In this document: piece by piece, positions 1,897 through 43,352 of the stretch
Position numbering within the stretch: the stretch's first letter is position 1
Layout of the letters: the number at the start of each line of letters is the position of its first letter
Assembly: GCF_029948125.1 (NCBI RefSeq)
Contig: NZ_JASAMB010000001.1
Span: 620,001 to 684,000, forward strand
DNA from: Catellatospora sp. KI3
GTDB taxonomy: Bacteria; Actinomycetota; Actinomycetes; Mycobacteriales; Micromonosporaceae
Reading direction: 5' to 3'
Length of the DNA: 64,000 bases
Made by a program: the position numbers and the translations under genes
Notes under the pieces: model-generated
The model's input: only the letters and a program-made list of their open reading frames with translations
The model's database searches: none
Told to the model about the DNA's origin: nothing

Positions 1897-3651
1897 ATGG
1901 GTGAGCAGCAGGTCCGGCCCGGTACGGGCGGACACACCATTGCCGTGAGCAGCGACGGCCTACGGGTCGGCCATCTGCATCACGGAGTGCTGCGAAATTG
2001 CGAACTTCCCGCCGGGCGCGTCAGCACGCTCGCCACCGGCGTCGACACGTTCGCCTTCGACCGCACCGGCGCGACCGTCGTGTGGATCTCCGGCGGCTGG
2101 CTGCACCACAACCAGGCCACCGGCCCGGTACCCACCCCGGGCCCGGTCGACCAGGCCCGGCCCGACCCGACCGGCCGCCGCCTGGCGTACCTCTACGACG
2201 GCGCCATCCGCGTCGCCCCGATCGGCCCGGTCGCCGAGGGCGGCGACGAGCTGCTGGCCGGGGAGCCGGACGGGGTGCGCTGGGGTGAGGCCGACCCGCA
2301 CGCCGGGCACTTCGGCCGCGACACCGGCTGGTGGTGGGCGCCGGACGGCGAGAGCATCCTGGCCACCCGGCGCCAGGGCGACCAGGTCTCGCTGCACCTG
2401 CTCGACCTCGACGGCGGCTGGGTGGACGTGCACTGGGACCGCGAGATCTACCCGTACCTGGGGGCGGTGCGCTGGGCCGACGGGGGGCCGCTGATCACGG
2501 TGCTGCGCCGATCGCAAGGGCACGGGCTGATCCTGGCGGTGGACCGGCGCACCGGCGAGACCCAGGTGCACGCCGAACTGGCCGATCCGCGCTGGGTGAA
2601 CCCGGTCGACGGGACGCCCCGCCACCTGGCCGACGGCCGGGTGCTGGTCGGCGGCGAGATCTCGCACGACGGGTACGACGCGCGCTGCCTGTTCGCCGAC
2701 GGCACCCTGCTCACCCCGCCCACGCTGTACGTGCGCCGGGTCGTGGGCCGCCTCGGGCCCGGCTCCACCGGCGGCGAGCTGGGCGACCTGCTGGTCGAGG
2801 CGAGCGAGGGCGAGCCCGCCGAGCAGCACCTGTTCCGGGTCCGCAGCAGCACCAGCGGCGGCATGGTGGTGCACCGGCTCACCAGCGCACCCGGCTGGCA
2901 CAGCGCCGAGTGCGGCGGCGACACAGTCGTCACCGGCCTGCGCAGCCTCGACGACGAGGACGAGCAGATCACCGTATGGCACGCCGGGCGGCAGGTCGCC
3001 GAGTTGACCCCGCGTCGGGCCGTACCGGCGAGCCTGGCCCGCCCGACCCTGGACCGCGTCACCGACCGGCGCCTGCCCACCGCGGTGCTCTACCCGCCCG
3101 GCCACGTCTTCGGCCGCCGCCTGCCGGTCCTGCTGCTGCTGCCCGACTCCCCCACCGCCCAGCAGGTACGCAGCGACCACGCCGCCTTCGCCGACGCCCG
3201 CGCCTGGACCGAGGCCGGGTTCGCGGTGGTGCTCGTCGACGGCAGGGGCACCGTCGGGGTGTCGCCGAGCTTCGAGAAGGTGACCCACCGCCGGGTGGTC
3301 GACCTCGCCGTCGGCGACCAGGCCGACGCGCTGCGCCTGCTCGCCGACAAGCACTCCGACCTGGACATGAACCGCGTGACCGCGTACGGCACCGGCTTCG
3401 GCGGCTGGCTGGCCGCGATGCTCGCCGCGCGCCGCCCGGACGCCGTCCGCGCCGCGATCGCGGTCGACCCGTGGGACTGGTCGGCGCTGCCCACGCCGCT
3501 GGCCGAGCGCTACCTGGGCCCGCGCGAGCTGGACAGCGAGGTGTACGCCCGCCACGACCTCGGCGAACTGCCCGACTCCGTCGTCACCCCCACCGACGGG
3601 AAGGAAGGGCACCTCCTTATCGCGCTACGTATGGGAAGGGCCCCTTCTTAA
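1897..3651 (+). CDS. S9-family peptidase homologue, truncated and lacking its nucleophile
   Basis: 584 residues with an N-terminal beta-propeller region like dipeptidyl-peptidase IV (WWAPDGESILATRR, DREIYPYLGAVRW) and a C-terminal alpha/beta-hydrolase region. Two things are wrong for an enzyme. The expected nucleophile box G-W-S-x-G-G reads GTGFGG, so residue 500 (codon 3394-3396) is glycine instead of serine. The protein also stops about 80 residues early: from about residue 568 the reading frame runs into a copy of the GGGCCC-palindrome repeat, which supplies the last 16 residues and the stop. The part that should hold the catalytic Asp and His is absent. It is a pseudoenzyme or a decaying gene. 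Confidence 0.8.
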   Translation: MGEQQVRPGTGGHTIAVSSDGLRVGHLHHGVLRNCELPAGRVSTLATGVDTFAFDRTGATVVWISGGWLHHNQATGPVPTPGPVDQARPDPTGRRLAYLYDGAIRVAPIGPVAEGGDELLAGEPDGVRWGEADPHAGHFGRDTGWWWAPDGESILATRRQGDQVSLHLLDLDGGWVDVHWDREIYPYLGAVRWADGGPLITVLRRSQGHGLILAVDRRTGETQVHAELADPRWVNPVDGTPRHLADGRVLVGGEISHDGYDARCLFADGTLLTPPTLYVRRVVGRLGPGSTGGELGDLLVEASEGEPAEQHLFRVRSSTSGGMVVHRLTSAPGWHSAECGGDTVVTGLRSLDDEDEQITVWHAGRQVAELTPRRAVPASLARPTLDRVTDRRLPTAVLYPPGHVFGRRLPVLLLLPDSPTAQQVRSDHAAFADARAWTEAGFAVVLVDGRGTVGVSPSFEKVTHRRVVDLAVGDQADALRLLADKHSDLDMNRVTAYGTGFGGWLAAMLAARRPDAVRAAIAVDPWDWSALPTPLAERYLGPRELDSEVYARHDLGELPDSVVTPTDGKEGHLLIALRMGRAPS

Positions 3652-3691: not shown

Positions 3692-5128
3692 ATGTCCTAT
3701 TTTGACGTGGGGGAGGCGGCCGTCGCCGCAGCTCTCGATGCCGGCGCACGGTACGCCGACGCGCGGGTGATGCACCGGCGCTACGAATCCATGGACGCCC
3801 GCAACGGCGAGATCGAGGACCTGTCCTCGACCGAGTCCGCGGGCATCGGCGTACGCGCGCTGGTCGGTTCCAGCTGGGGCTTCTACGCCGTACCCGACCT
3901 GTCCGACAGCGCGGCCCGGCTGGCCGGCGCCCGCGCCACGGCCATCGCCAAGGCCAGCGCCCGCGTCGCGGGCCGCGCCACCGACCTGGTGCCGACCGAC
4001 GTCAGCACCGCGACCTGGGCCAGCGAGTGCCTGATCGACCCGCTCGCGGTGCCGCTGTCGGACAAGGGCGACCTGCTCACGCACGCCACCAAGACCATGC
4101 GCGAGCACGGCGCCGACGTGGCCACCGCCCTCTACGCCGTCTGGGACACCCGCAAGTGGTTCGTCTCCAGCGAGGGCCACCGCATCGACCAGCACGTACG
4201 CGAGTGCGGCGCGGGCGTCCAGGCGACCAGCATCGGTGAGGGCGAGACCCAGGTCCGCTCCTACCCGGCCTCGCGCGGCCAGTACGGCACCCGCGGCTGG
4301 GAGCTGGTCCAGGGCCTGGACCTGCTCGGCAACGCCGCCCGCGTCGCCGAGGAGTCGCGCGAGCTGCTGACCGCCCCGCAGTGCCCCAGCGGCGAGACCA
4401 CCCTCATCCTGGGCCCCGAGCAGCTGTTCCTCCAGATCCACGAGTCCGTCGGCCACGCCATCGAACTCGACCGGATCCTCGGCTGGGAGGCCGCCTTCGC
4501 GGGCACCTCCTGGCTGGACCTGTCCCAGCTCGGCTCGCTGCGCTACGGCTCCGAGCTGATGAACATCACCATCGACCCGACCCTGCCGGGGGCGCTGGGC
4601 AGCTTCGGCTTCGACGACGAGGGCACCCCCGCCGCCAAGCGGTACGCCGTCCGCGACGGCATCTGGGTGGGTGTGCTCGCCGGGCGCGACTCCGCCGCCC
4701 TGGCCGGGCTCGACTACGCGGGCAGCGTCCGCGCCGACGGCTGGTCCCGCCTGCCCATGGTCCGCATGACCAACGTGGGCCTGGAGCCCGGCCCGCACAC
4801 CCTCGAGCAGATCATCGCCGAGACCGACGACGGCATCTTCATGGAGAACAACCGCTCCTGGTCCATCGACGACAAGCGGCTCAACTTCCAGTTCGGCTGC
4901 GAGGTCGCGTACGAGGTCAAGAACGGCAGGCGCGGCCGCCTGCTGCGCAACCCCAGCTACACCGGCATCGGCCCCAAGTTCTGGCAGTCCATGGACATGC
5001 TCTCCTCGGAGATCGAGTACTGGGGCACGCCGAACTGCGGCAAGGGCCAGCCCACCCAGTCCGGCCACACCGGCCACCCGGCCGCACCGGCCCGCTTCCA
5101 GGGTGTACGGGTCGGAGTCCGCGCATGA
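3692..5128 (+). CDS. tldD: TldD, metalloprotease subunit
   Basis: TldD and TldE (PmbA) form a heterodimeric zinc protease that trims small peptides, known from microcin B17 maturation and CcdA turnover in E. coli. 478 residues from ATG 3692; an in-frame GTG two codons earlier is possible. The zinc motif HESVGH (H250, E251, H254) is the TldD hallmark, and GSFGFDDEGTPA follows as in the family. The stop overlaps the start of tldE (ATGA at 5125), the standard coupled arrangement. No modified-peptide precursor is visible nearby, so its natural substrate here is unknown. Confidence 0.93.
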   Translation: MSYFDVGEAAVAAALDAGARYADARVMHRRYESMDARNGEIEDLSSTESAGIGVRALVGSSWGFYAVPDLSDSAARLAGARATAIAKASARVAGRATDLVPTDVSTATWASECLIDPLAVPLSDKGDLLTHATKTMREHGADVATALYAVWDTRKWFVSSEGHRIDQHVRECGAGVQATSIGEGETQVRSYPASRGQYGTRGWELVQGLDLLGNAARVAEESRELLTAPQCPSGETTLILGPEQLFLQIHESVGHAIELDRILGWEAAFAGTSWLDLSQLGSLRYGSELMNITIDPTLPGALGSFGFDDEGTPAAKRYAVRDGIWVGVLAGRDSAALAGLDYAGSVRADGWSRLPMVRMTNVGLEPGPHTLEQIIAETDDGIFMENNRSWSIDDKRLNFQFGCEVAYEVKNGRRGRLLRNPSYTGIGPKFWQSMDMLSSEIEYWGTPNCGKGQPTQSGHTGHPAAPARFQGVRVGVRA

Positions 5129-15859: not shown

Positions 15860-17299
15860 ATGGCAGACGAGAAGAACAACGGCGGTAAACCCGCCGAAGC
15901 CGAGCCCGCCGACGATCTCAAGGTCACCCACCATGATCGGGGCGGGCTGCGCTACACCGCGACCGCGGGCCGGGTCGTGCTCCGCGGCGAGTCGCACACC
16001 GACGACGCGTTCGACGGGCACAAGGCGAAGGCGGAGATGTTCGTCGTGGCGTACACGCTCGACGGCGCCGACCCGGCCACGCGGCCGGTGACCTTCGCCT
16101 TCAACGGCGGACCCGGCTCGTCGAGCGTGTGGCTGCACGTCGGCCTGCTCGGTCCGCGCCGGGTGGTGATGGGCGACGCCGGTGCGCTGACCCCGCCGCC
16201 GTACGGGCTGACCGACAACCACGAGACCCTGCTGCACCACTCCGACCTGGTCTTCATCGACCCGGTGTCGACCGGTTACTCCCGGGCCGTCAAGGGCGGC
16301 AAGAGCAAGGAGTACCACGGCTTCACCGGCGACGTGGAGAGCGTGGGCGAGCTGATCCGGCTGTGGACCTCGCGCAACGGCCGGTGGTCGTCGCCGAAGT
16401 ACCTGTGCGGTGAGTCGTACGGCACGCTGCGCGCCGCGGCCCTGGCCAACCACCTGCAGGACAAGCACGGCATGTGGCTCAACGGCCTGATGCTCGTCTC
16501 CAGCGTCCTCAACATCGGCACGCTGGAGTTCCACCCGCACCTCGACGTCGCCTACCCGCTGTTCCTGCCGACCTACGCGGCGATCGCGCACTACCACGGC
16601 CTGCACGGCGACCGGCCGCTGCGCGAGGTGCTGGCCGAGGCCGAGGCGTTCGCCGATCAGGCGTACCCGTGGGCGCTGGCGCGCGGCTCGCGCCTGTCCG
16701 ACGCCGAGCGCACTGCCGCGGTCGGGCAGCTGGCCCGGCTGACCGGCCTGAGCGAGGACTACGTCGACCGGGTGGACCTGCGGCCGGAGCACGTCCGCTT
16801 CTTCACCGAGCTGCTGCGCTCGAGGCGGCGTACCGTCGGGCGGCTGGACGGGCGGTTCCTGGGCTGGGACGCCGACTACGGACGCGAGCACTGGACGTCC
16901 GACCCGTCCTTCGACGCGATCATGGGGCCGTACAGCGCGGCGATCAACCAGTACCTGCGCGCCGAGCTCGACTACGCCAACGACCTGCCGTACCGCGCGC
17001 TGTCCCCGGACGTGCACCCGTGGTCGTTCAAGGAGTTCGAGGGTGAGCACGTCAACGTGGCGCACAAGCTGGCCGCGGCGATGCGCGCCAACCCGCACCT
17101 GCGGGTCCAGGTGGCCTGCGGCTACCACGACGGCGCCACGCCGTACTACGCCTCCGAGCACACCTTCGCCCACCTGGAGATCCCGGCCGAGCTGCGCGCC
17201 AACATCGAGTTCAAGTACTACGAGGCCGGCCACATGATGTACGTCCACGAGCCGAGCCGCCTCGCGCAGTCGCAGCATCTGGCGGACTTCGTCCGATGA
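15860..17299 (+). CDS. S10 serine carboxypeptidase-like protein
   Basis: 479 residues. The S10 signatures are clear: FNGGPGSSSVWLH for the oxyanion region, LCGESYGTLRAAALANHL with the nucleophile Ser, the Asp in ACGYHDGATPYYA, and the His in YYEAGHMMYVHEPSR. No signal peptide is visible at the N-terminus (MADEKNNGGKPAEAEPADD), so it is probably cytosolic, unlike eukaryotic lysosomal relatives. It starts 21 bp after the winged-helix gene, so the two may share a transcript. Substrate not predictable. Confidence 0.9.
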   Translation: MADEKNNGGKPAEAEPADDLKVTHHDRGGLRYTATAGRVVLRGESHTDDAFDGHKAKAEMFVVAYTLDGADPATRPVTFAFNGGPGSSSVWLHVGLLGPRRVVMGDAGALTPPPYGLTDNHETLLHHSDLVFIDPVSTGYSRAVKGGKSKEYHGFTGDVESVGELIRLWTSRNGRWSSPKYLCGESYGTLRAAALANHLQDKHGMWLNGLMLVSSVLNIGTLEFHPHLDVAYPLFLPTYAAIAHYHGLHGDRPLREVLAEAEAFADQAYPWALARGSRLSDAERTAAVGQLARLTGLSEDYVDRVDLRPEHVRFFTELLRSRRRTVGRLDGRFLGWDADYGREHWTSDPSFDAIMGPYSAAINQYLRAELDYANDLPYRALSPDVHPWSFKEFEGEHVNVAHKLAAAMRANPHLRVQVACGYHDGATPYYASEHTFAHLEIPAELRANIEFKYYEAGHMMYVHEPSRLAQSQHLADFVR

Positions 17300-17302
17300 C
17301 AT

Positions 17303-17420
17303 GGCAGCCGCCTCCGCGGCTGCGGCGGGATCGCCTCGCGGCGGCGTCTTCCCTCGTCGCTGCGGGGCCTGCGGCCCCGTCACGCTCCTCAGTCCAGACG
17401 CCGCCGCGATCCCGCGTGGC
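17303..17420 (+). repeat. family C structured element, copy 1
   Basis: Begins 4 nt after the S10 stop. Hairpin GCAGCCGC/GCGGCTGC (17304-17323), then three nested helices: outer GCGGGATCGC/GCGATCCCGC (17325-17334, 17406-17415), middle GGCGGCGTCT/AGACGCCGCC (17340-17349, 17396-17405), and inner CGGGGCC/GGCCCCG (17363-17379). Between middle and inner helices lie TCCCTCGTCGCTG and TCACGCTCCTCAGTCC, which are identical in all three copies. Confidence 0.85.
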
Positions 17421-32002: not shown

Positions 32003-32115
32003 GCGCGATCGCGGCGGCGTCTGGACTGAGGAGCGTGACCGGGCCGAAGGCCCGGCAGCGACGAGGGAAGACGCCGCCTTGAGGCGATCACGCCGCAGCC
32101 GCCGAGGCGGCTGCC
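32003..32115 (-). repeat. family C structured element, copy 2
   Basis: Read on the minus strand it starts 6 nt after the uppS stop. Middle helix GGCGGCGTCT/AGACGCCGCC (32013-32022, 32069-32078), inner CCGGGCC/GGCCCGG (32039-32055), outer pair GCGTGATCGC/GCGATCGCGC with one wobble. The same two unpaired segments as copy 1 are present without change. Confidence 0.85.
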
Positions 32116-32120
32116 AGAAA

Positions 32121-32891
32121 CTAAGTTCCGAAGCGCCTCTGGCGGCCGGCGTAGGCGCGCAGGGCGCGCAGGAAGTCGACATGGCGGAAGTCGGGCCAGT
32201 TGAGCTCGCAGAAGTAGAACTCCGAGTGCGCCGACTGCCACAGCAGGAAGCCGGACAGCCGCTGCTCGCCGCTGGTCCGGATGATCAGGTCGGGGTCGGG
32301 CTGGCCGCGGGTGTAGAGGTGCTCGGCGATGTGCTCCACGTCGATCAGCTCGGCCACCTCCTCGATGGTGGCCCCCGCCTTGGCGTGCTCCTGCAGCAGC
32401 GAGCGCACCGCGTCGGCGATCTCCCGGCGCCCGGTGTAGCCGACCGCGATGTTGACGAACGCCCCGCCCTCGCGGCCGCCGGTGCGGTTCTCGGCCGCCT
32501 TCAGCGCCGCCGCCGTCTCGGCGGGCAGCAGGTCCAGCGCGCCGACCATGCGCAGCTGCCAGGGGTTGCCGTCCTCGGCCAGCTCGGTGACCAGGTCCAC
32601 GATGATCTGCAGCAGCGGGTCCAGCTCGGCGGCGGGCCGGCGCAGGTTGTCGGTGGCCAGCAGGTACAGCGTGACGTGGGCGATGTCGGCCTCGTCGCAC
32701 CAGCGCAGCAGTTCCTTGATCCGCGCGGCGCCGACCCGGTGGCCGTCGTTGGGGTCGACGTAGCCCATGTCGCGCGCCCAGCGGCGATTGCCGTCGCACA
32801 TGACGCCCACGTGGCGGGGGCGGGGCTTGCCCGCCAGCAGGGACGTCAGGCGGCGTTCGTACACCGAGTAGACGAGATCGCGCAGTTTCAT
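32121..32891 (-). CDS. uppS: isoprenyl (polyprenyl) diphosphate synthase, UppS family
   Basis: 256 residues. Cis-prenyltransferase that builds polyprenyl diphosphates for wall-lipid carriers on the inner membrane face. The catalytic Asp is D33 in MCDGNRRWAR; downstream signatures GHRVGAARIKELL, LYLLATDNLRRP, VNIAVGYTGRREIADAV and DLIIRTSGEQRLSGFLLWQ complete the family pattern. Actinobacteria often have two such enzymes, one making short Z,E-farnesyl and one long decaprenyl diphosphate; which one this is cannot be read. Spaced 29 bp from the Rrf2 gene upstream. Confidence 0.93.
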   Translation of the reverse strand: MKLRDLVYSVYERRLTSLLAGKPRPRHVGVMCDGNRRWARDMGYVDPNDGHRVGAARIKELLRWCDEADIAHVTLYLLATDNLRRPAAELDPLLQIIVDLVTELAEDGNPWQLRMVGALDLLPAETAAALKAAENRTGGREGGAFVNIAVGYTGRREIADAVRSLLQEHAKAGATIEEVAELIDVEHIAEHLYTRGQPDPDLIIRTSGEQRLSGFLLWQSAHSEFYFCELNWPDFRHVDFLRALRAYAGRQRRFGT

Positions 32892-39725: not shown

Positions 39726-40292
39726 CTACTTCTCCTCGGCCTCGGCCTCGGCGCGCGTCGCCTGGGCCGGGGCCGAACTCTTGGCAGCGCGCTCGTTGTC
39801 GTTGAACGAGTACGCGTCCCGGTCCGCCTCGACCAGCTCGTACAGCGTGGTCTGGACCTTCTCCACGTGCGGGATGTCGTTCAGGACCGACTGACCGCGC
39901 TCGCCCGCCGACTCGATGGTCAGCGTGCCGCAGCCCAGCAGCCGCTCGATGAACTTCTGGTTCATCGAGTGGTCGTTGACCCGCGACAGCGGGATGTCAC
40001 GCCGGTCGCGCGAGAACACGCCGGTCTGCAGCAGCACCCGCTCGTTGGTCAGCACGTAGTGCGTCGTACGCCAGACCAGCCAGGGCCAGAACGACAGCCA
40101 CGCCACCGCCACCACGGCCAGGCCCGCGATGATGTAGATCAGCACCTCGTTGTCCAGCAGGACCAGCGCGCTGATCACCGCCGCCACTGCCAGCACCAGC
40201 ACCGTGACCGGCCGGATCATGGCCTTCCAGTGCGGGTGCAGGTCGAGCACCACATGTTCGCCGTCGGTCAGCACGTCCTCGGGGAACGCCAT
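39726..40292 (-). CDS. bacterial PH-domain (bPH2) membrane protein
   Basis: 188 residues. Two membrane helices at about 28-72 (PVTVLVLAVAAVISALVLL, VLIYIIAGLAVVAVAWLSFW), then a bPH2 domain (THYVLTNERVLLQTGVFSRDRRDIPLSRVNDHSMNQ, TLTIESAGERG) of the YdbT/YdbS type, then a charged Ala/Glu tail. Function unknown, possibly stress or envelope related. Convergent with the second GtrA gene, 10 bp apart. Confidence 0.9.
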   Translation of the reverse strand: MAFPEDVLTDGEHVVLDLHPHWKAMIRPVTVLVLAVAAVISALVLLDNEVLIYIIAGLAVVAVAWLSFWPWLVWRTTHYVLTNERVLLQTGVFSRDRRDIPLSRVNDHSMNQKFIERLLGCGTLTIESAGERGQSVLNDIPHVEKVQTTLYELVEADRDAYSFNDNERAAKSSAPAQATRAEAEAEEK

Positions 40293-40391
40293 CTTCCTTG
40301 CCTCCTATGTCGCGGGCTGTCAGTTCCTGCGCGATTGCCCGCGAGCAGGTTAGTGCCGCCCCACCACCATCCGGAATCGGCTCTATTGTCG

Positions 40392-40506
40392 GCGCCTGCC
40401 TCCGCGGGCACGGCGGACCCGCTCGCAGGCGGTGTCTTCCCTCGTCGCTGCCGGGCCTTTGGCCCGGTCACGCTCCTCAGTCCAGACACCGCCGCGGGCC
40501 CGCGTG
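40392..40506 (+). repeat. family C structured element, copy 3
   Basis: Middle helix GGCGGTGTCT/AGACACCGCC (40428-40437, 40484-40493), where C-G of the other copies is replaced by T-A. Inner CCGGGCC/GGCCCGG (40451-40467), outer GCGGACCCGC/GCGGGCCCGC (40413-40422, 40494-40503) with one mismatch. The invariant unpaired segments are again unchanged. Unlike copies 1 and 2, it does not directly follow a gene in its own orientation. Confidence 0.85.
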
Positions 40507-40564
40507 GGGGTGCTGGGCTGCGCGAGTGTCGGTGATATGACCGGAGGCGGGTGAGCGGGCCCAG

Positions 40565-40655
40565 GGTCCCGGGGTGAGCGTCGCCAGGTCCCCGGGTGGG
40601 TGGGCGCTGGGTCCCGGGATGAGCGTGGCCAGGTCCCGGGATGAGTGTGGTCAGC
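40565..40655. repeat. tandem 22-23-bp repeats
   Basis: Four imperfect units of the type GTCCCGGGATGAGCGTGGCC. They adjoin the 24-bp array and share no obvious sequence with it except G-rich GGTGAG stretches. Confidence 0.7.
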
Positions 40656-40690
40656 CGGGGCGGAGGGTGAGGTGTGATCGCCCAGGCACG

Positions 40691-40786
40691 GGGCGGGTGG
40701 TCGCCCGGTCCTGCGGGTGAGTGGTCGCCCGGCCCTGCGGGTGAGTGGTCGCCCGGTCCTGCGGGTGAGTGGTCGCCCGGCCCTGG
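40691..40786. repeat. tandem 24-bp repeat, four units
   Basis: Units at 40691, 40715, 40739 and 40763, each containing GTGGTCGCCCGG(T/C)CCTGC. The first unit starts GGGCGGG, the others GGGTGAG; the third-codon periodicity keeps several frames open. Likely variable in copy number between strains. Confidence 0.88.
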
Positions 40787-40970
40787 GGTGGGTGTGATCG
40801 GCGGGCGCGGGGTTGAAGTGATCGGCGGGGTGCGGGGTGCGTGTGATCGGCGGTTTGGGTCGGTTGGCGGGGTGAGGGGCCAGGTTGTGACCGCAGGCGC
40901 CGATCAGCACGGGTCGTGCCGCCAGAGATCAGCGTTTTAGGACGGCACAGGGGGCAACCCTGCGCACCCG

Positions 40971-42281: not shown

Positions 42282-43352
42282 CTAGCCCGCATGCCGGGCC
42301 CGGACGGGGGCAGTGTCACCGTCGGTGAACGGGCCGAGCCAGTCGGGGAGCACGATGTCGGTCTGGCCGGCGTCGGTGGCGATGCGGCGGGGACGCTGCA
42401 GGGCCTCCATCCGGTGGTGGCGGCGTACCGGTTCACCCGCGGCCGCGCTCGCGCCGCCGCCGGGGACCGCGACCAGGCCGGGTCCGAAGCCGGCGGGTAC
42501 GGCCACGGTGGGTCCGGTGGCCAGCCCGTCGCCGACGGTACGGTCCGCCAGCGGTACGGCCGCTCGCCGACGCGGCGCCGGACGGGGCACGCTTCCGTTG
42601 CTCCCGGCACTTGCCCGGTCCTGCCGGATCGGGTGCACCGAGCCGCCGACGCCGTCGGCGGGCGGGGCGAAAGCGGGGGCGGCGGCAGCGCTCTCCGACG
42701 ATACGGCGGAAGCCGAGACGGCGGCGCTGCTCCTGGACGACCTGGCCGAAGCTGTGACGGAATCGCCGCCGACAAGCGGTGCGCCCGAAGCCGAGGCGGA
42801 ATCGCGGCCGACGAGCCGTGCGGCGGAAACCGCGGCGGGATCGCTGCCGACGAGCCGTGCGGCCGAAGGCGAGGCGGGACCGACGACGAGCCCGGCGGCG
42901 GAAGGCGAGGCGGGGCCGCTGCCGACGGGTGGTGCGGCAGAGGTCGGAGCCGCGGTCGGAGCTGTCGGGTGGTTGGTGCGTGGACGGTGTGCGAAGCGGG
43001 AGTCGGTGTTGATCCCCGGCACGCCGGTGCCGACCGTCAGGGGTGGGACGCGGTCGGCGGGGTTCGGGACGGTGGTCGTGAGCCGGGGCGCCCCGGCGTG
43101 GGCGGGTACGGCGGCGCGTTCGGTCCGCCGGGGTGCGGCGGGAGTCGTGGCCGACACCGCGCCGCGCCCGGCGGGACGGGGTCGGCGCGAGCCTGGCGCG
43201 GTCCGGCCGCCGGCTCCGGGCCGGGTCGGGTTCGGCGGAGCCGAGACCGGTCGGCGTCTGCGCGTCGCGCGGGGGCGTGGTTCGCCCTGCCACGGCCGCA
43301 CCACGGCGAGCACGGTGAAGCCGCCCACCAGCAGCGCTACCCCGAAGACCAT
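42282..43352 (-). CDS. membrane-anchored low-complexity protein with 13-residue repeats
   Basis: Not recognised. 356 residues from ATG 43352; an in-frame GTG at 43376 is possible. One N-terminal membrane helix (MVFGVALLVGGFTVLAVV) is followed by a long Arg/Pro/Ala/Ser-rich region. In the middle, residues about 135-210 consist of five imperfect 13-residue repeats (for example VGSDPAAVSAARL and VGRDSASASGAPL). Near the C-terminus a more ordinary segment (IVLPDWLGPFTDG) appears. It lies between birA and the divergent accD, so its position is shared with the carboxylase genes, but its role is unknown. Confidence 0.55.
   Translation of the reverse strand: MVFGVALLVGGFTVLAVVRPWQGEPRPRATRRRRPVSAPPNPTRPGAGGRTAPGSRRPRPAGRGAVSATTPAAPRRTERAAVPAHAGAPRLTTTVPNPADRVPPLTVGTGVPGINTDSRFAHRPRTNHPTAPTAAPTSAAPPVGSGPASPSAAGLVVGPASPSAARLVGSDPAAVSAARLVGRDSASASGAPLVGGDSVTASARSSRSSAAVSASAVSSESAAAAPAFAPPADGVGGSVHPIRQDRASAGSNGSVPRPAPRRRAAVPLADRTVGDGLATGPTVAVPAGFGPGLVAVPGGGASAAAGEPVRRHHRMEALQRPRRIATDAGQTDIVLPDWLGPFTDGDTAPVRARHAG

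Follow-up and report, generated by a model that had tools for sequence, protein, structure and literature searches.

A structured intercistronic repeat with a fixed core in freely varying stems, patchily spread over an actinobacterial class

Analysis of a 64,000-nucleotide stretch of the Catellatospora sp. KI3 genome (contig NZ_JASAMB010000001.1, positions 620,001 to 684,000; hereafter the window) revealed three copies of a small, probably mobile intercistronic repeat that is structured, patchily spread over the class and built around a fixed core in free stems, and that is a new variant among such repeats. With a probability of roughly 0.6, we read this element as a MIRU-like mobile repeat, GC-rich, non-autonomous and about 115 bp long, that moves as folded DNA by means of an enzyme encoded elsewhere. 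The three copies, which a preliminary description had already located, were all confirmed in the window sequence at those places, each of them single and none in a tandem array. Their parts and neighbouring genes are as follows.

17302..17416, + strand: copy 1, full element, 115 bp, from genome BLAST and the copy alignment; element lacking at the alignable site in G002 and G008
17304..17323, + strand: copy 1, hairpin 1, 8 bp with a 4-nt loop; two-sided changes in 2/8 pairs (11 own-genome copies)
17325..17334, + strand: copy 1, outer helix, 5' strand, partner 17406-17415; two-sided changes in 4/11 pairs
17335-17339, + strand: copy 1, bulge of 5 nt on the 5' side only, after the 5' strand of the outer helix
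17340..17347, + strand: copy 1, middle (inner) helix, 5' strand, partner 17398-17405; two-sided changes in 1/8 pairs
17348..17361, + strand: copy 1, first half of the fixed core, CTTCCCTCGTCGCT
17363..17379, + strand: copy 1, apical helix and loop, 7 bp with a 3-nt loop; the part that differs between genera
17380..17397, + strand: copy 1, second half of the fixed core, TCACGCTCCTCAGTCCAG
17398..17415, + strand: copy 1, 3' strands of the middle and outer helices
32003..32116, - strand: copy 2, full element, core halves 32057-32070 and 32021-32038; element lacking at the alignable site in G005
40390..40504, + strand: copy 3, full element, core halves 40436-40449 and 40468-40485
15860..17299, + strand: gene upstream of copy 1, Peptidase_S10 (PF00450)
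32121..32891, - strand: gene upstream of copy 2, undecaprenyl diphosphate synthase (PF01255)
39726..40292, - strand: open reading frame 5' of copy 3 and reading away from it, bPH_2 (PF03703)

The window also holds tandem repeats of 22-48 bp at 40548-40853, shortly downstream of copy 3, and a 39-bp (75-bp) tandem repeat at 42744-42938 with about five copies of the 39-bp unit.

Element copies pair into a hairpin and then a long bulged stem that presents the fixed core, in the order hairpin 1, outer helix (10-11 bp), 5-nt bulge (5' side only), middle helix (8 bp), and the core halves CTTCCCTCGTCGCT...TCACGCTCCTCAGTCCAG around a variable apical helix. The three nested helices had been recognised in the preliminary description, which missed a fourth, a separate hairpin 5' of the nested ones (17304-17323), and overlooked that 5 nt bulge out asymmetrically from the 5' strand where the outer helix passes into the middle one. 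Its other structural observations were borne out, since the intervening segments TCCCTCGTCGCTG and TCACGCTCCTCAGTCC do not differ among the three window copies and the compensated changes are present (middle C-G to T-A, apical G-C to C-G, outer A-T and T-A to C-G). In six folds, on either strand, the predicted fold was much more stable than that of shuffled sequences, with z values of -3.6 to -6.7. Across the 11 copies of the window genome, which had been collected through BLAST similarity to copy 1 irrespective of the core pattern, 98.4% of cells were paired and 9 of 34 pairs carried two-sided changes; none of 500 shuffles reached the observed covariation score or percentage paired, the structure used in this test having been drawn from the same 11 sequences and their predicted folds, and the number of further pair types, one of five measures, was reached by 37 of the 500. 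The drift of paired bases around fixed unpaired ones, also claimed earlier, is evident in the same copies, where 2/33 columns of the unpaired core were variable against 21/66 paired columns (Fisher p 0.005), and again in 25 copies of three genomes (6/33 against 30/65, p 0.008).

Constancy of the core among copies collected by core pattern is given by construction, and the independent support for it comes from the BLAST-gathered copies; in Nocardia-like matches to a covariance model, R1, the core varies. Sampling by core pattern fixes the core and not the stems, and in 122 distinct copies (124 rows) taken irrespective of stem pairing, the eight positions adjoining the core were 75-91% Watson-Crick against 33-82% with shuffled partners, with pairing ending at position 9 from the core, where the bulge starts. 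Two pairs of orthologous sites further document changes of the stem that kept its pairing: in L087/L094 the stem was altered by a double change, and in L174/L186 a different inner stem lies between flanks that are 97-99% identical.

The earlier remark that no described family of this form was known to its author agrees with the Rfam searches, in which the window gave no match at gathering score and 18 other loci gave only a tRNA. Over the element, a relaxed search of six loci gave nothing beyond a weak hit to mir-1224, at 24.9 bits against a gathering score of 105, in L043. A 6C RNA (RF01066) unrelated to the element was called barely above its gathering score (47.8 vs 47) at 3021-3095 (+) of L012. 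None of the titles listed from the largely open-access literature searched (actinobacterial repeats, MIRU, core letters) names the element family, which is weak evidence for its absence from print.

BLAST with copy 1 identified 11 full copies in the window genome among the best 40 of 173 candidates, all at E <= 9.9e-26 and followed by a gap to E 0.01; the exact core pattern recovered nine. When 14 candidates were scored per genome, the element was matched in 5 of 61 genomes, its own included, and in 3 of 11 of the genus, with 11 matches in the window genome (G000), 10 in G005, 5 in G009, 9 in G033 and 2 in G019. A scan of species genomes with the core pattern yielded at least 119 stretches, of which 118 among those listed were actinobacterial, 99 from 15 named genera (among them Kribbella, Actinomadura, Herbidospora, Virgisporangium, Nonomuraea and Streptomyces) and 19 from actinobacterial bins. 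The one remaining record (L126, Spirochaetaceae) was taken as chance, because it is the only one of the 119 listed that lies outside the actinobacteria and it has no stems. The covariance model R1, built from 17 copies of which 16 were picked for pairing and hence biased by choice, found matches in at least 20 of 394 genomes and at least 12 of 138 genera of the class, and in at least 2 of 396 genomes of a phylum-wide draw; with 10-11 candidates scored per genome, its copy numbers are floors and bearer genomes may be missed. In one Kribbella genome 41 matches were obtained at E 1e-20, including two to the flanks of the query, and tandem arrays of the element with a spacing of 115-118 bp were seen in L141, L234 and L246.

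Similar DNA had no match in plasmid records (three queries) or phage records (one query). A single contig of a viral collection carried the core pattern (L189, an IMG/VR contig, 3859-3904), near the contig end and with weak stems. Actinomadura barringtoniae (L170) bears a copy of Kribbella type (GGTCATGGGGC ... GACCCCATGACC), possibly through horizontal transfer. In L013, L016, L019, L050, L052 and L062, a partial unit of about 41-49 bp, consisting of hairpin 1 and the 5' outer strand, precedes full copies; such partial units, together with a solo hairpin-1 unit in Actinomadura (see below), may represent either footprints or a mobile form of reduced size.

The element is present or absent at orthologous sites of close relatives. 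In Catellatospora, the site of copy 1 lacks it in G002 and G008, where CTTGACAT stands before and GCGTGG after the place, with no target duplication visible and an alignment directly behind the element that is not unique. At the same site, G005 carries the element in opposite orientation and G009 retains a short stretch, which we read as an element remnant. The copy 2 site is free of the element in G005, where CTTGATGAGTCA adjoins GGTCACTGTCACGG. At the place of copy 3, ten other same-genus genomes gave no element match and the right flank was not alignable, so that it does not count as a clean empty site. The Catellatospora comparison showed no direct repeats flanking copies 1 and 2.

Filled and empty sites were also found in other genera. 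At the Kribbella rsmD junction, a GTGA stop/start overlap, 4 of 11 genomes were filled and 7 empty; an empty example reads GAGAAGACGTGACGCG, and the filled sequence, GAGAAAACGTGAC-element-CGTGACACGG, shows that the upstream TGA and the downstream GTG are both kept. TGAC flanks the element on both sides in all four filled sites and CGTGAC in three of them, the fourth (L269, G451) having CATTGAC on the left, as in the empty G457, and CGTGAC on the right. Of 31 Kribbella copies, 19 have RTGAC on the left, 28 have it at the right end and 17 on both sides; in L131, L132 and L146, ATGAC occupies the right end and the left side has no such motif. Given the flanks of L269 and these three right-only copies, the RTGAC on the right may belong to the element itself instead of being a target duplication. 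No empty sites were found among the fetched Kribbella loci themselves.

At an Actinomadura junction, likewise a stop/start overlap, before a gene that we read as thiolase-like, the element lies opposite in orientation to the genes. Nine genomes were listed there: four filled, one with an array containing masked letters (G637), one with the solo hairpin-1 unit (G646), one with a short scar (G636) and two empty (G644, G645); two further genomes gave no flank match. TGA flanks both sides in all four filled sites and TGAGC in one of them (G641). In Herbidospora, the same site in two species (L073/L151) carries a core flipped between near-identical stem arms, L073 having no bulge, and such a flip could happen in hairpin-forming DNA. 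We infer the direction of change at all these sites, and the empty ones could be losses, for example by deletion between short repeats.

Copies of the element have a site preference. According to a crude GC-frame gene caller, 116 of 133 were intergenic, and copies 1 and 2 lie, as first described, directly behind stop codons in the same orientation (reading frames 15860-17299, +, and 32121-32891, -). A sandwich of stop, element and start within a few bases was observed with the core in sense in 14 of 31 Kribbella copies (one antisense) and with the core in antisense in 9 of 81 copies from other genera (one sense); of 2240 random positions, 0.7% and 0.6% showed the same arrangement. Neither a stop nor a start lay at the tested distances in 42 of the 81 non-Kribbella copies. 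The core is thus mostly sense to genes in Kribbella and mostly antisense elsewhere. This occurrence of exact cores on opposite strands relative to genes across genera is the main reason for which we place core recognition at the DNA level, since a core that switches strand between genera does not fit one that is read in mRNA.

The way in which pairing fails carries a further signal. In 81 rows, departures outside Kribbella comprised 45 of the C.A type (G.U on the minus strand) against 1 of the G.T type (plus strand), those in Kribbella 1 against 7, and 40 others were of neither type. With the outer stem and gene context included (79 rows), minus- against plus-strand wobbles numbered 33 to 0 where the genes were co-directional and antisense, 3 to 6 between sense genes and 24 to 5 in mixed gene settings. 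The asymmetry hints that the usual mRNA strand is under selection; here genus is confounded with strand, and the mixed settings lean alike.

Such wobble-type departures on the usual sense strand, together with the covariation around fixed loops and the location behind stops and before starts, are what would be expected of a cis-acting structured RNA, that is, a 3'-UTR or intercistronic regulator whose core binds a protein or ligand and whose useful copies spread by duplication. Consistent with this account, the 3' strands of Kribbella elements often bear a GGGAGG Shine-Dalgarno-like stretch and a start codon, both of which are thereby enclosed in stems. However, exact cores also lie antisense to genes, presence or absence differs between related species, and one copy stands behind a tRNA-like 3' end (L020, by eye), and we therefore consider this explanation unlikely. 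The preliminary description had taken a functional 3'-UTR RNA as its main reading, which could not be upheld in view of the sites of copies 1 and 2 without the element, the inverted element in G005 and a core strand that varies by genus. Its wording of selection on an RNA, or, in brackets, on single-stranded DNA recognised by a transposase, comes close to the reading favoured here in the bracketed option; its first option does not stand as the main one, though the wobble asymmetry hints at some selection on RNA.

Ordinary intrinsic terminators or ribosome-termination structures that resemble one another by coincidence are a far less probable source of these copies. The hairpins are very stable, two of the three window copies lie directly behind stop codons, and hairpins of the ribosome-termination or terminator type are described as widespread (PMC7518266). 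Nevertheless, a 27-letter core common to several genera and the presence or absence at orthologous sites are hard to reconcile with coincidence; moreover, no T-run was seen by eye, and some copies lie directly before start codons.

A mobile DNA element that folds into bulged palindromes recalls REP/BIME sequences, and an element of that type moved by a Y1 HUH transposase (RAYT or IS200/IS605-like) was weighed as an alternative to the MIRU-like reading. REP feet are of the GTAG type. In one study, 446 of 4,072 E. coli REP sequences lie within 15 nt of a stop codon (PMC12306157), and the element shares with REP/BIME and RAYT systems that it is an interspersed extragenic palindrome, in some cases near stop codons. 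No target duplication was seen in Catellatospora and a TTGAT-like left motif was recognised by eye in several genera, both in keeping with such a transposase. PF01797 (Y1_Tnp) was detected in 60 of the 394 class genomes, in 12 of 20 element bearers against 48 of 374 others. However, 11 of the 12 positive bearers belong to one family (f31), so that the association is confounded by kinship, and the domain is absent from 8 of the 20 bearers, namely the window genome with its 11 copies and seven further ones. The element also differs from REP/BIME in its fixed core within an internal loop and its several distinct helices. We accordingly judge this alternative improbable. HUH/RAYT as a required partner was rejected on the absence of PF01797 from the window genome. 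When 836 open reading frames near 120 loci were clustered in a search for an autonomous copy, none of the 25 clusters listed appeared transposase-like by eye.

Small mobile sequences of other bacteria offer a further comparison. In PMC2229807, RUP, YPAL/RU-2 and Correia sequences are presented as MITEs or small mobile sequences that are mostly A+T-rich. The element resembles MITEs as characterised there in being non-autonomous, under 200 bp and hairpin-forming, and differs from them in being GC-rich and in having helix sequences that vary from copy to copy.

The likeness behind the favoured reading is to the MIRUs of mycobacteria. MIRUs, with their characteristic motif and DTGA description, are insertions in a TGA stop/start overlap that carry a motif at both ends, measure about 46-101 bp, contain a small open reading frame in register with both neighbours, and have served for decades in the typing of tuberculosis; we know of no described mode of movement for them. 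The MIRU motif, searched with up to three mismatches in 198 genomes of a genus taken for Mycobacterium, occurred in 93 of these Mycobacterium-like genomes, frequently as arrays that repeat every 53 bp or so, and a reversed control pattern was absent among the matches listed. TCA (TGA on the other strand) flanked both sides in 22 of 30 distinct MIRU rows from 20 loci. A stem of GCGCC/GGCGC or ACGCC/GGCGT was fully paired in 16 of the 30 rows, in four of five positions in 10, and in fewer in 4. The double change ACGCC/GGCGT appeared in rows of L297 and L308, which share a flank and were therefore counted as one; another, in a shifted register, was seen by eye in L296.

MIRU CTCATCGCTGCGCTC could be aligned locally over 44 nt with CTCGTCGCTGCGCTC of the short-core members of the element; for the shortest-core members L100 and L102, the aligned part reached 44 nt at most, and an equally good score came from 1-4 of 5000 shuffles (1 and 2 for L102). 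Similarity to the window copy (325 and 344 of 5000 shuffles) or to a Kribbella copy (627 and 115) was not significant, and R1 at E 1e-4 gave no match in Mycobacterium-like genomes in the class search (10-11 candidates scored per genome). Both are small repeats that in part of the cases carry a TGA-type motif on both sides, both show tandem arrays and a GCGCC/GGCGC-type stem, and by eye the core orientation of MIRUs is that of the Actinomadura element; TGA flanks of the MIRU type were found at one Kribbella and one Actinomadura site and were not seen for Catellatospora copies 1-2. They differ in that MIRUs have about 53 bp per unit and have neither hairpin 1, nor the outer helix, nor the AGTCCAG half of the core, whereas the element has 115 bp with extra helices and so exceeds the MIRU size range. 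MIRUs are thus a possible to probable short relative of the element, the relationship not being proven. More tentatively, the copies could represent an undescribed, class-wide superfamily ancestral to MIRUs, in which hairpin DNA is mobilised by an enzyme that reads the core and ignores the stem, each copy carrying its own stems, including one complementary to the stop/start site that it occupies.

For the MIRU-like mobile repeat that we favour, we infer that a trans-acting enzyme recognises it at the DNA level, that the repeat is mobile at present and that it affects translation. The element would move as folded DNA, and an enzyme encoded elsewhere would read the fixed unpaired core, leaving the stem sequence free as long as it pairs. 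Insertions would survive mainly behind stops or in stop/start overlaps, where a short repeat would keep both the stop and the start. After insertion, the element probably forms part of the transcript as a hairpin between cistrons, and this hairpin may tune the translation of the following gene or uncouple it. In M. bovis, MIRUs are reported to lie in the 5' UTRs of genes (PMC4128351), which makes an effect of the element on expression plausible.

A larger structured relative of MIRUs that is polymorphic between species of harmless soil actinomycetes would give a tractable system in which to search for the enzyme. A single element family would also be remodelling translational gene junctions in several genera, and, should the core alone be fixed and the stem be free, its recognition would follow an unusual rule for a mobile element.
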